Source of the DNA: a virus
DNA: 54,855 bases
Strand: one strand, 5' to 3'
Virus record (IMG/VR): IMGVR_UViG_3300031280_000001
Coordinates: 1 to 54,855 of that record
In this document: piece after piece, positions 25,633 to 37,646 of the stretch
Position numbering within the stretch: the stretch's first letter is position 1
Layout of the letters: each line of letters starts with the position of its first letter
Notes under the pieces: model-generated
Told to the model about the DNA's origin: nothing
Databases searched by the model: none
What the model saw: only the letters and a program-made list of their open reading frames with translations
Made by a program: the position numbers and the translations under genes

Positions 25633-26496
25633 ATGAATAAAGCACAATTCAATTTAGAGTTGTATCATAAGATGTATCAACTCTATAAAATTTCTGCTGA
25701 ACAAGGTATCAAATTATATGCAGAATCATTAAGTCATCATTTTGAAATTCCAGATCGTGTAGCTAGATACTATTTTTTTATGGTAGAAAATAATTATAAT
25801 CAAACTACCCAATCTAATAAGATCCAGGGAGAAAATCGTTTGATTATCCCAGATCTTCATAGTCCATTTGTTAAAAAAGGATTTCTTGAACACTGCGTTC
25901 AGGCTTATCATGAATATCAATGTACTAAAGTATCATTTTTAGGAGATATCCTAGATAATCATTTTAGTTCATTTTGGAAAACAGATCCAGATGGACTATC
26001 AGCAAAAGATGAAATAGATTTGGCTATAGAAATTCTTCAACCTTGGTATTCGTCTTTTCCTGAAGCAGAAGTTTGCATTGGAAATCACGACGCCCGGATA
26101 AGACGTCAAGCATTTGATGCTGGCATATCTGAAAAATGGATTAAAAATTATTCTGATGTTATTGAAACTCCTGGATGGATATGGGATGATTATTTTGATC
26201 ATTTTGATGTACGTTATATCCATGGTGATGGACCAGGTGGTGCAACTAATGGAGCTTTCAATAGAATGCTTCATTGGAGAATATCAGTGGTACAAGGACA
26301 TTTTCATACCAGTTCTTATACTCGATGGTCTGTTTCAGAAAAGGATAGATTATATGCTATGCAATGTGGATGTGGTATGGATTACAAAGTTTACGCTGCA
26401 GCATATGGTAAAAAATCTCAAAAGAAACCAGTAATTGAATGTGCCGTTATTTTAGATAATGGTAGAATCCCAATTCACCTCCCAATGTATTTATAA
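25633..26496 (+). CDS. Calcineurin-like metallophosphoesterase
   Basis: The 287-residue product carries the metallophosphoesterase signature in order: IIPDLHSPF, FLGDILDNH, IGNHDARIRR, YIHGDGPGG and GHFHTSSY, which together supply the two-metal site. The N-terminal 70 residues are a separate helical segment, possibly DNA- or partner-binding. Members act as phosphodiesterases, phosphatases or nucleases; the substrate cannot be read from sequence. It is the first gene after the rightward promoter. Base composition is more AT-rich than the late operon. Confidence 0.85.
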   Translation: MNKAQFNLELYHKMYQLYKISAEQGIKLYAESLSHHFEIPDRVARYYFFMVENNYNQTTQSNKIQGENRLIIPDLHSPFVKKGFLEHCVQAYHEYQCTKVSFLGDILDNHFSSFWKTDPDGLSAKDEIDLAIEILQPWYSSFPEAEVCIGNHDARIRRQAFDAGISEKWIKNYSDVIETPGWIWDDYFDHFDVRYIHGDGPGGATNGAFNRMLHWRISVVQGHFHTSSYTRWSVSEKDRLYAMQCGCGMDYKVYAAAYGKKSQKKPVIECAVILDNGRIPIHLPMYL

Positions 26497-26506
26497 TCAG
26501 ACAGTT

Positions 26507-27007
26507 ATGAGTAACGTTAATAAAGCTATAAAGATGGCGGCGGAGAAGGGATTTTCTATTGATAAAGAAGGAAATGTATTCCGTCATGGTAGTCCAATAA
26601 AGCCCTGTTTTCATAAAGGTTATAAGCACTTTAGTGTAGTCATTAGTCCAAACAAACAGATCAGTGTTCCCTTTCATCGATTTCAGGGATATCATAAATT
26701 TGGATTAAAGATATTTAAACCTGAGATAGCTGTACGTCATCTTAATGGGGATAGAACTGATAACTCATGGAATAACATGGGTATAGGTACACACCTAGAC
26801 AACATGAGGGATATTCCTAAAGAGGCTAGGTTACAGGTTGCTACAAATGCATCCCATACCAGATGGCCAAATCAACCAGATGCAGCAGCTATGCTACTAG
26901 ATAAAGAAAATGGGATGCATTGGAAAGACATAGCCAAAAAATACGGTACCAGCAGATCAAATACACATCGTTTATTGGTGAAGCAGCGTAATTTAAAATC
27001 ATTCTAA
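26507..27007 (+). CDS. HNH homing endonuclease, 166 aa
   Basis: The start is taken at MSNVNKAIKM, because the longer frame overlaps the previous gene. Core residues are HRFQGYHKFG, AVRHLNGDRTDNSWNNMGIG and the following helix, as in phage HNH enzymes of the HNH_3 type. The C-terminal 45 residues include a helix-turn-helix (WKDIAKKYGTSRSNTHRLL) for site recognition. It lies immediately upstream of the tmRNA-like RNA gene and is one of two endonucleases bracketing it. Confidence 0.85.
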   Translation: MSNVNKAIKMAAEKGFSIDKEGNVFRHGSPIKPCFHKGYKHFSVVISPNKQISVPFHRFQGYHKFGLKIFKPEIAVRHLNGDRTDNSWNNMGIGTHLDNMRDIPKEARLQVATNASHTRWPNQPDAAAMLLDKENGMHWKDIAKKYGTSRSNTHRLLVKQRNLKSF

Positions 27008-27049
27008 ATAAGTATTGGGTATTGCAATATCCAATATTTTATTGTAGCT

Positions 27050-27460
27050 TTACAGAAGTTCTTTGAGATCGATATTTCGAAACATGTTTGGACCGGGGTT
27101 CGTTGCCCCGCATCTCCACAAAAAGTCCAACCGGTAGCCAAAAGGGGTGAGGATAAGATCACACACCCGGGCGTTTATTCGGCTCTGGCCTTGGGGGATA
27201 ATACGACGCCGTGCAAAAATGTCTATGCTGAGGAGCATGAAGATATACCGCCGGAAGATTCGTATTTTCCCCCCCTGGTACAGGGGAGTAAGTTACAAGA
27301 TTGTAAGATATGGGGATGAATGTTTTGACAGCATGAGAGTAGGGTATCAGGAGAGGACGAAGCTAATTAACCGGCACAAAGGTTATACAACTAATTCCTC
27401 AAGGCCGCTTCCAGGAAGCAGCTTAGCTAGGAGCCTGAGCCCCTTCGGGGGTTTCAGGTA
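27050..27460 (+). ncRNA. ssrA: Probable circularly permuted tmRNA
   Basis: The 3' tRNA-like half comes first. A T arm at 27096-27112 (CGGGG, loop TTCGTTG, CCCCG) is followed directly by CATCTCC (27113-27119) and an A. The 5' half comes later. GGGGATG at 27312-27318 pairs over 7 bp with CATCTCC (one G-U) and runs into TGTTTTGACAGC, the conserved tmRNA D-loop segment. Further pairing AGCATG (27330-27335) with CATGTT (27086-27091) and GGTATC with GATATT fits helix P2. An intervening segment of about 190 nt joins the halves. Downstream, GAGGA (27353-27357) pairs with TCCTC (27396-27400), possibly part of PK1. An ORF ending QEAA then TAG (27424-27426) is a candidate tag. A UUCG-capped hairpin at 27434-27458 closes the gene. 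Resume codon and pseudoknots are unresolved, and CCA is not encoded. Confidence 0.7.
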
Positions 27461-27472
27461 AGTTTCTAAAAC

Positions 27473-27985
27473 GTGATAAAAGATTTGAAACCAATAACTG
27501 GATTTGAAAATTATTTAATAGATTGTTCAGGTAAAGTATTTAGCCTAAAAAGCAACAAATACCTGAAGCCCGGTGACAACGGGCGCGGATATTTTAAGGT
27601 AAATTTATGGCGAAATGGAAGGCAGTATACTATAACTATTCATAGATTAGTTGCTCAGGCTTTTCTCCCTAATCCTGATAACAAATCATTTATTAACCAC
27701 AAAGACGGAAATAAACTCAACAATACGGTATCTAATTTAGAGTGGGTGACGCCAGCTGAGAATAATCAACATGCTTATGATATAGGCTTAAGAAAATGGT
27801 CACCGAATTCGGGCCGAAAACTTATTCCTATTAATGTATACGATTATAAAACTGGCGAGTTTAAATCTACCCATGATTCTATAAGTGAAGCTATTGAGCT
27901 TTATGATTTAAATTATGGCGGTGTATGGAGGATGTTACATGGAAAATCGAAACACACAAAAAAATTAACTCTCGCTAAAATATAA
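27473..27985 (+). CDS. NUMOD4/HNH homing endonuclease, 170 aa
   Basis: Translation uses GTG at 27473. The N-terminus (LKPITGFENYLIDCSGKVFS) is a NUMOD4 DNA-binding motif. The HNH core follows (TITIHRLVAQAFLPNP, FINHKDGNKLNNTVSNLEWV, TPAENNQHAYDIG), and the C-terminus (PINVYDYKTGEFKSTHDSIS) is a NUMOD1-type recognition element. It starts about 12 nt after the last hairpin of the tmRNA-like gene. Confidence 0.9.
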   Translation: MIKDLKPITGFENYLIDCSGKVFSLKSNKYLKPGDNGRGYFKVNLWRNGRQYTITIHRLVAQAFLPNPDNKSFINHKDGNKLNNTVSNLEWVTPAENNQHAYDIGLRKWSPNSGRKLIPINVYDYKTGEFKSTHDSISEAIELYDLNYGGVWRMLHGKSKHTKKLTLAKI

Positions 27986-27988
27986 CAA

Positions 27989-28705
27989 ATGAAAAAACAA
28001 ATTTTACAGTTACAAGGTAGATCACGAACCATTACATCCTTTTTGGATAATCTGAACATTAATGAAAAAACTGTAGAAGAGTATAATAAACTCGGAAATA
28101 AAGGTCTGATTCATTGGACAGAATGGAGAGAAATTATGCAGGATGAGGAGAAGTACAAAAAGCTTTCTCCCATTGAACAACAAACACTTCATGAAAATTC
28201 CCGGTCTTTCACTCAAATGCTTACCGAACTTGACAATGAGGTTAAATACCTTATCAATACCAAACATACACTTGCCCTTTCTGATTGTCTTAATCATATT
28301 CTTTCCGTTAATCAATTATTTGATAAACTTGTTGATTTAATGGGTGGTCGTGATGGAAAATTTAGTTTTACCAAACTCAAATATGTTAGAGAAAAAGGTT
28401 GGGAAAAAACCTCTTACAAAGATAAAGTATTTAATCTGGTCACTGAATTAGATCTGCTTACCGAAGATTTTGGTGAATTTATAAATAATCCTGAAAAATT
28501 TAATTATGTTCAAATGATCGTAAATGCGATCATGAATCAAATTTATGTATCCCTTGTACAATCACTGGCATGGCTTAATAGTGAATATGATCGTATAGAG
28601 CAAGAAGGGATGCCAAAGGCTAGAGAATTTAAACTCCCGGAAATCCAGGTACCCAAAATACCGGAAGATGGCGAAACGGATCAGTCAGAAAAACCCAAAG
28701 AGTAA
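27989..28705 (+). CDS. Hypothetical helical protein, 238 aa
   Basis: The gene starts 3 nt after the HNH gene. The product is mostly helical and charged (RSFTQMLTELDNEVKYLINT, SDCLNHILSVNQLFDKLVDL), with a Pro/Glu-rich tail (PEIQVPKIPEDGETDQSEKP). It has no signal peptide, membrane helix or recognised motif. It may have been moved next to the endonuclease or be the ancestral neighbour. Confidence 0.6.
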   Translation: MKKQILQLQGRSRTITSFLDNLNINEKTVEEYNKLGNKGLIHWTEWREIMQDEEKYKKLSPIEQQTLHENSRSFTQMLTELDNEVKYLINTKHTLALSDCLNHILSVNQLFDKLVDLMGGRDGKFSFTKLKYVREKGWEKTSYKDKVFNLVTELDLLTEDFGEFINNPEKFNYVQMIVNAIMNQIYVSLVQSLAWLNSEYDRIEQEGMPKAREFKLPEIQVPKIPEDGETDQSEKPKE

Positions 28706-29380: not shown

Positions 29381-30085
29381 ATGGAAACAAAGAAATTACA
29401 AGACCTCTCCTTTGAGGCTCGCTGCGGTTTAATTGCTAAGGTGATACACAGCGCCAATAGAGCATATAATGACGCAATCGGCGGTAAGATTCAGAATCTA
29501 TCGTGGGAAGAAATTCGTGAGGAGGAGCGCCAGGGACTCATCAAGGCTGTCATCAGTATGATCAAAGAGCCCAAGACCCCGGAAACATCTCATCAAGCTT
29601 GGTGTGAGGCTAGGAAGGCCGCCGGCTGGACCAAGGATAAGGTTTATAGCCAGCACAGAAAAACTCATCCCAATTTGATTCCTTATGCCGAACTTCCTTT
29701 TGAAGAACAGTTCAAGGATCATCTATTTATGGGCATTGCCAGCATTTTTGTTGGGGGTCTGGGTATGTTCTACATGCCTGAAGTAATGGGAGATCCAGTA
29801 GCTATTGATTCTGAAGATACCAAACTCCGCGTTGTGGAGGATGATGAGGATCTGAAAAAGGAAAATGCAGAGCCGGATAATCTTATCAATGGAGTTGACA
29901 AGATTTATGAGCCAGTAACTACAGATCAGAACCCTGCCGGGTACACAGTCACTGATGCAGCTGAAACCAGATTTGGCGGAAATCCTCCATCAGCGTTAGA
30001 TCCAAATGTATCTAATTCGATTGAAGAGATTAAGCCTAAAGCTAAATCTAAAGCTAAGAAACCGGCCCCTAAAGTAAATAAGTAA
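29381..30085 (+). CDS. RyR-domain protein, 234 aa
   Basis: Residues about 60-120 carry a RyR domain: KTPETSHQAWCEARKAAGW, then HPNLIPYAELPFEEQFKDHL. In ryanodine receptors this module is a repeat. Stand-alone versions occur in bacteria and Bacteroides phages with a suspected role in sensing ligands or nucleotides. The N-terminal 50 residues are helical (FEARCGLIAKVIHSANRAYN). The C-terminal 100 are acidic, then end in a Lys/Ala-rich tail (KPKAKSKAKKPAPKVNK). A short hydrophobic stretch after the domain (FMGIASIFVGGLGMF) may be membrane-associated. Confidence 0.82.
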   Translation: METKKLQDLSFEARCGLIAKVIHSANRAYNDAIGGKIQNLSWEEIREEERQGLIKAVISMIKEPKTPETSHQAWCEARKAAGWTKDKVYSQHRKTHPNLIPYAELPFEEQFKDHLFMGIASIFVGGLGMFYMPEVMGDPVAIDSEDTKLRVVEDDEDLKKENAEPDNLINGVDKIYEPVTTDQNPAGYTVTDAAETRFGGNPPSALDPNVSNSIEEIKPKAKSKAKKPAPKVNK

Positions 30086-32380: not shown

Positions 32381-32842
32381 ATGAAATATGTAATAGTAGA
32401 TATCGATGGTACTGTAGCTCACAGCGCTACTCGCCAAGCTAAGATTCTCCAGCTTCTGGAGGTTACTCCTATTAAGGAGATGCCATGGTCAGAATTATTC
32501 AAAGACTGTCAATTGGATAAACCACTTTGGGTGGTCATTGATTTAATACTCGCAATAGCTAATAAGTACCATATTGTATTTTGCACCAGCCGAAATGAGA
32601 CATTTAGAGAAAAAACCCGGGCTTGGATTGATGAATATATTGGTTTATGGAAGGCTCCGCTGCTTATGAGAAAGTCTATAAAGGACCATCGATCAGATAG
32701 TATCGTGAAGCCGGAACTCCTTAAGGAAGCTGGTATTACGACGAAGAATACAGCTTTTATCATTGAAGATAAAAATTCAATAGTTCAAACCTGGCGAGAT
32801 CTTGGTTTCACAGTTTTACAACCAATTAATAACGAATATTAA
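32381..32842 (+). CDS. HAD-family phosphatase (PNK 3'-phosphatase-like)
   Basis: The 153-residue product shows HAD motifs in order: VIVDIDGTVAHS (DxDGT nucleophile), VFCTSRNETF (motif II, Ser/Thr), Lys at LMRKSIKDHR and FIIEDKNSIV (motif IV). This layout matches the phosphatase half of T4-type polynucleotide kinase, which removes 3' phosphates from DNA or RNA and takes part in tRNA repair. A kinase domain is absent here. Other HAD substrates are possible. Confidence 0.82.
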   Translation: MKYVIVDIDGTVAHSATRQAKILQLLEVTPIKEMPWSELFKDCQLDKPLWVVIDLILAIANKYHIVFCTSRNETFREKTRAWIDEYIGLWKAPLLMRKSIKDHRSDSIVKPELLKEAGITTKNTAFIIEDKNSIVQTWRDLGFTVLQPINNEY

Positions 32843-37573: not shown

Positions 37574-37646
37574 CGCTGAAGGAAGGATTTGAACCTACAC
37601 TTTCCAGGATGAAAACCTGACGTCCTACGCGATAGACGATAAGGCC
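37574..37646 (-). tRNA. tRNA-Glu (TTC)-like, acceptor stem does not pair
   Basis: The D arm, anticodon stem TCAGG/CCTGG with loop TTTTCAT, and T loop TTCAAAT are good. The expected 5' strand GGCCTTA does not pair with the 3' strand CTTCAGC, and the T stem has one T-T mismatch. It may be a decayed tRNA or one kept for another use. Confidence 0.6.

Follow-up and report, generated by a model that had tools for sequence, protein, structure and literature searches.

A phage locus encoding a circularly permuted, presumably two-piece tmRNA with a conserved structured spacer

Organisation of the locus

The window, i.e., the whole stretch of 54,855 nucleotides analysed here (positions 1-54,855 of the IMG/VR record IMGVR_UViG_3300031280_000001, classed as a virus record), contains a circularly permuted tmRNA gene on the plus strand, with an actual extent of about 27058-27458. 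The gene and its surroundings comprise the following features:

26459-27007, +: HNH endonuclease gene upstream of the tmRNA; absent from this place in the related phage L003 (domain search, synteny)
27022-27052, +: Bacteroidota-type promoter candidate, TTG-N20-TAGCTTTA, whose last base differs from TAnnTTTG (consensus match)
27058-27089, +: acceptor piece, P2 3' strands (27058-27064, 27071-27077, 27083-27088) plus a linker leading to the T arm (RF04321 match, pairing analysis)
27090-27118, +: T arm, acceptor 3' strand CATCTCC and discriminator A, GGACCGGGGTTCGTTGCCCCGCATCTCCA (read directly; Rfam; pairing in nine relatives)
27119-27311, +: intervening sequence of 193 nt, presumed removed, with a conserved structured core at 27121-27278 (comparative fold, covariance model)
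27312-27335, +: start of the coding piece, with acceptor 5' strand GGGGATG, D-like region and first P2 5' strand (Rfam, layout, pairing)
27342-27358, +: further P2 5' strands, 27342-27348 and 27352-27358 (pairing analysis)
27368-27385, +: small hairpin TAACC/GGTTA, its loop holding the resume codon, at the usual PK1 position (comparison with relatives)
27373-27426, +: tag reading frame GTKVIQLIPQGRFQEAA with stop TAG at 27424-27426 (homologous frames in relatives)
27434-27458, +: 3' hairpin CCTGAgCCCCttcgGGGGtTTCAGG closing the coding piece (read directly)
27473-27985, +: HNH endonuclease gene (HNH_3, weakly I-HmuI-like) downstream; not found here in relatives (domain search, synteny)
27989-28705, +: gene for a conserved 238-aa all-helical protein, which follows the tmRNA in relatives (synteny)

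The tRNA-like 3' half precedes the 5' half, and both the acceptor and the T stem are formed. The Rfam family RF04321 (tmRNA_permuted, release 15) matches 27058-27426 over its full model (1-213) with 48.6 bits and an E value of 1.4e-6, a score barely above the cutoff of 47. Of the two program checks proposed with the original prediction, the Rfam search was thus positive, and ARAGORN called five tRNAs and no tmRNA in the whole window. A script that scanned both strands for a perfect T stem, a 7-bp acceptor and TTGAC found the permuted layout exactly once in the window, and 200 dinucleotide shuffles gave no instance.

Positions 27090-27118 can be divided into GGAC-CGGGG-TTCGTTG-CCCCG-CATCTCC-A, and CCA is unencoded after the discriminator A27118. 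The 5' half, GGGGATGAATGTTTTGACAGC, begins at 27312 and is read as GGGGATG-AATGTTTTGACAGC. As originally proposed, the halves lie about 190 nt apart (193 nt, 27119-27311) and pair through P2 and a 7-bp acceptor, the latter including G3-U70. P2 consists of three paired runs (27058-27064/27352-27358, 27071-27077/27342-27348, and 27083-27088/27330-27335). No PK1 was found before the resume codon: RF04321 marks the PK1 helix as broken in the window, and merely 14 nt separate P2 from GGC 27373, which leaves no room for it. PK1 is usual in tmRNA, but it is not required by the RF04321 cutoff.

In Bacteroidota, promoters follow the consensus TTG-N20-TAnnTTTG. The start predicted from the promoter candidate lies near 27058, the first base of P2, and full or relaxed matches occur at a similar distance upstream of six of the nine relatives described below, compared with an expected 0.066 relaxed matches per 120-base region.

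Further downstream in the window there are a RyR domain protein (29381-30082), a PNKP-type phosphatase domain possibly involved in RNA repair (32381-32839), and a weak extra tRNA match (32.5 bits, 37582-37637, minus strand) inside a tRNA cluster, which ARAGORN did not report.

Conservation among related phages

Relatives were gathered from IMG/VR by pattern scans and by searches with a 773-aa terminase-like protein, which yielded nine distinct sequences with the permuted layout (the window, L003, L063, L072, L064, L006, L084, L070, and L004). The window phage has no close cultured relatives by DNA, terminase or portal, and INPHARED has no phage record that matches its terminase or portal. In all nine sequences, window included, the acceptor and T stem form completely (12 of 12 pairs), with compensatory changes in seven of the pairs; the alanine identity elements, G3-U70 and the discriminator A, are invariant in nine of nine. 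P2 pairs in each relative with a changed sequence, and hairpins of differing sequence are seen by inspection 3' of the tag in L003, L063, L072, and L064. Searches of whole records with RF04321 gave E values from 1.9e-7 to 2.5e-10 in G004 and G007-G010 and of 0.003 in G005, although several relatives score slightly under the cutoff (37.5-44.8 bits). Based on the Rfam match, the covariation and the nine relatives, the locus is a permuted, presumably two-piece tmRNA gene, and the claim that its 3' half comes before its 5' half is borne out.

In the window, L003, L063, L064, and L072, the tmRNA is flanked by a phosphoesterase-like gene on one side and the 238-aa gene on the other; a distant version of the 238-aa gene is also present on the tmRNA contigs of L006 and L084. 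The 238-aa protein itself gave no family match and no usable fold match. The HNH genes look like later insertions, because at this site both are missing from L003 and L063 carries only an upstream one.

That HNH genes flank the tmRNA on both sides might suggest a relic or passenger from another replicon, retained by chance. The borderline Rfam score would fit with this, as would the related 78-kb phage record G006, in which the RF04321 search gave nothing convincing; either the tmRNA is dispensable or the G006 record is incomplete. However, the acceptor and T stem show compensatory changes and the tag frame is retained across relatives whose large terminase identity falls as low as 38 %, which makes a chance survivor very improbable. 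A protein-coding gene in place of an RNA gene has next to no probability: an open frame of about 100 codons does span the region in the window (27147-27461, 104 aa), but relatives have stops in every frame and conservation tracks base pairs, and the candidate was rejected.

The tag reading frame

GGC 27373 and GGC 27403 are both present in the same frame, and both had been put forward as resume codons. The shorter tag, GRFQEAA from GGC 27403, is not supported, since the homologs start their tags at the position corresponding to 27373, whereas the longer, 17-codon frame from GGC 27373 has homologous frames in relatives. The tag of the window thus reads GTKVIQLIPQGRFQEAA, with 17 codons from GGC 27373 to TAG 27424, and ends in Ala-Ala followed by the stop. 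The corresponding tags are GENVIQMETVQLKVAA (L003), GENVKLIPHGNFKEAA (L063), GEKVIALPDRWLKVAA (L072), GKVIKMRPNAQLKVAA (L064), GKVVQLSPVWSHKVAA (L006), GKTINMVERPQELRLAA (L084), and GESRFDQEHRLAA (L004), and tags in other phages are GKVIQMNNAPVRLAA (L101), DKVINMFSPSLRAVA (L098), GKVINLFNSEAKVAA (L056), and GNVYQMFDQPARQAA (L016). Homologous tags often start like G-x-V-I-[QN]-[ML] and usually end in [K/R]-x-A-A. In a small test, third codon positions were the most variable across the tag frames, as in a coding frame.

The resume-codon hairpin forms in the window, L003, L063, L072, L064, L006, L101, and L098, and not in L084, L070, L016, or L056; in most of the group, its closing pair covaries (C-G, A-U, and U-A). 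Conservation of V-I in the tags can be attributed in part to this hairpin, although L056 and L016 keep a similar tag start without it.

The tRNA-like domain might alternatively serve as a decoy or inhibitor that competes with host tmRNA for SmpB or AlaRS, the tag remaining untranslated. When expressed in E. coli, a tag-less tmRNA of mycobacteriophage DS6A inhibits the endogenous tmRNA (PMC11915505), and the missing PK1 may weaken tag translation in the window. Nonetheless, divergent relatives keep the tag frame, the Gly start, the stop and the -AA end, with third positions varying most, so that a role as a decoy appears improbable, and a translated tag remains the preferred reading. E. coli ClpXP prefers tags ending in LAA. 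By analogy with this preference, QEAA/KEAA tags may be poor degradation signals, and proteolysis of proteins tagged with QEAA rather than LAA or VAA is possibly weak.

The spacer RNA

The spacer has a structured core in six phages (the window, L003, L063, L072, L006, and L084), each of which carries a single copy of the RNA, at the tmRNA site only. The core folds as two stacked hairpin domains (pseudoknots were sought by eye only), in which helix A (AAG-U-CCA-A-CCG ... CGG-NNN-UGG-C-CUU) can stack directly on helix B (GGGGGA ... UCCCCC); the arm with helix B usually ends in U-GAGG-A. The RNAalifold consensus contains 35 pairs, 18 of which show compensatory changes on both sides, and in L003 and L072 an alternative fold is favoured by 2.5 kcal/mol. 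A covariance model built without the window recovers the spacer of the window (84.5 bits, E 3e-21) and gives no further hit there. Searches with the model found no second copy in eight phage records, the core pattern was found in no other context in viral contigs, and no Rfam family came near any cutoff.

A permuted tmRNA can do without this spacer RNA, because other relatives have different spacers: those of L064 and L070 are 77-78 nt long and unrelated, and that of L004 has 281 nt. In L084 (3926-4154, minus strand), the spacer also holds a tRNA-like sequence, with CAU as its anticodon, shortly before the 5' half; one published permuted tmRNA carries a tRNA-Ala gene in its spacer (PMC11915505).

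Two known kinds of RNA were considered for the spacer region. A group I intron or a permuted intron-exon arrangement was rejected, as there was no Rfam intron match and no P3/P7-like pseudoknot was seen. An HDV-like theta ribozyme, defined by a nested double pseudoknot with P1 starting at the tRNA 3' end, was judged on inspection to be a poor fit to the fold next to the tRNA-like 3' end, and Rfam gave no match to the HDV family. From comparison of the sequences, the spacer is a conserved structured RNA that appears to be new and has no known counterpart. It is possible, albeit rather doubtful, that the spacer is itself a functional RNA (a new ribozyme, a ligand sensor or a protein-binding RNA) that controls tmRNA maturation or acts after its release. 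If so, the locus would give two RNAs with different jobs.

Proposed mechanism

The locus very probably encodes a working two-piece tmRNA that uses the RNase P, AlaRS and SmpB of the host. The gene layout and the conservation of pairing, tag frame and spacer fold are seen in the sequences themselves, and we infer the function and, from known tmRNA biology, the processing, charging, use of SmpB, tagging and benefit to the phage. A single precursor would be transcribed from near 27058. Host tRNA enzymes would free the acceptor piece after A27118, to which CCA would then be added, and a cut by RNase P at G27312 would release the 193-nt structured spacer. The two pieces would be held together by the acceptor stem and P2. 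Owing to G3-U70, the acceptor piece would be charged by host alanyl-tRNA synthetase, and the charged RNA would be delivered to stalled ribosomes by SmpB; this would need to be host SmpB, since no SmpB gene was found in five phage records. Translation would resume at GGC 27373, add (A)GTKVIQLIPQGRFQEAA, and end with release at UAG 27424. The phage might benefit from ribosome rescue during infection and possibly from a phage-specific fate of tagged proteins.

Hosts, other phages and comparison with known systems

The original prediction regarded the window as a Bacteroidota phage, and this is supported indirectly, i.e., through promoter matches of the TTG-N20-TAnnTTTG type at several relatives, the lack of an encoded CCA, and the occurrence of related RNAs in phages of Bacteroidota. 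It had also called a permuted tmRNA in such a phage unexpected. This holds with regard to the hosts: the standard one-piece tmRNA exceeds the cutoff in 277 of 296 Bacteroidota genomes, whereas RF04321 does so in only one (L101), within a region with phage replication genes and crAss-like resemblance, and that genome also has its own standard tmRNA. The weaker RF04321 matches examined in these genomes were standard tmRNAs. It does not hold with regard to phages, as several unrelated Bacteroidota phages have permuted tmRNAs: the crAss-like cr60_1 and cr53_1 and the cultured Maribacter phage Panino, where they are sometimes already annotated (RF04321 matches in cr53_1 and Panino, an ARAGORN permuted call in cr60_1). 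Permuted tmRNAs thus do exist in Bacteroidota phages, and there is more than one such case. The Panino paper mentions a tmRNA without giving the order of its halves. Near the permuted tmRNA of cr60_1 (L124) there are RAGATH-9 and RAGATH-20 RNAs (71-228 and 1163-1264). Cellulophaga phage Calle_1 (L125, about 1171-1530) has a one-piece tmRNA, whose tag, if read from an upstream GGA, would be unusually long, at about 30 codons.

With respect to origin by permutation of a Bacteroidota one-piece gene, the Gly resume codon and the unencoded CCA point that way, whereas the D-region motif does not; Bacteroidota ancestry based on the D-region TTTTGAC was dropped, as TTCGAC occupies this position in most of the 22 standard Bacteroidota tmRNAs compared.

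Permuted phage tmRNAs are already known, and it is the phage lineage, the tags and the spacer that are new variants. The locus adds a lineage of permuted tmRNAs, carried by phages that probably infect hosts with one-piece tmRNAs. Phage and host RNAs should therefore be distinguishable by order, tag and probes, which makes testable both the gain of a phage from its own rescue RNA and the effect of a phage-specific tag on the fate of tagged proteins. There is also a gap in detection, since the window gene escapes ARAGORN and the scores of several relatives stay under the Rfam cutoff.

The permuted two-piece tmRNAs of Alphaproteobacteria, Betaproteobacteria, and Cyanobacteria (RF04321; RF01849-RF01851) share with the window the order of the halves, the G3-U70 acceptor, the T arm, P2 and the tag in the 3' piece. 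Unlike RF04321-type bacterial tmRNAs, the window lacks PK1, places its resume GGC in a small hairpin, has a 17-aa tag and contains a 193-nt conserved structured spacer; its CCA is unencoded, whereas the RF04321 consensus has CCACCA. Two-piece phage tmRNAs have been published from Methylophilales phage Melnitz and marine phages, in a study that classed 53 of 133 unique phage tmRNA structures as two-piece (PMC9004378). The tmRNA of Melnitz is likewise phage-encoded and permuted, but it is of the alphaproteobacterial type and adjoins a glutamine riboswitch, and the parts of the account consulted mention no similar spacer RNA (PMC9004378). Closer in setting are cr60_1, cr53_1, and Panino, also Bacteroidota-type phages with a permuted tmRNA; the start of the Panino tag, GKVMNVSFAPTVRQFA, resembles the tags of the window's relatives. 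However, none of these three phages matches the window terminase or portal, and their tmRNA loci lack the spacer RNA as defined by our model (R1). Finally, in the standard one-piece tmRNAs of Bacteroidota (RF00023), CCA is mostly unencoded, as in the window, and the tags of some lineages begin with GEN/GEY and a Gly resume codon (GENNYALAA); in contrast to the window, these tmRNAs are made as one piece, with the usual pseudoknots and tags of mostly 9-10 aa.
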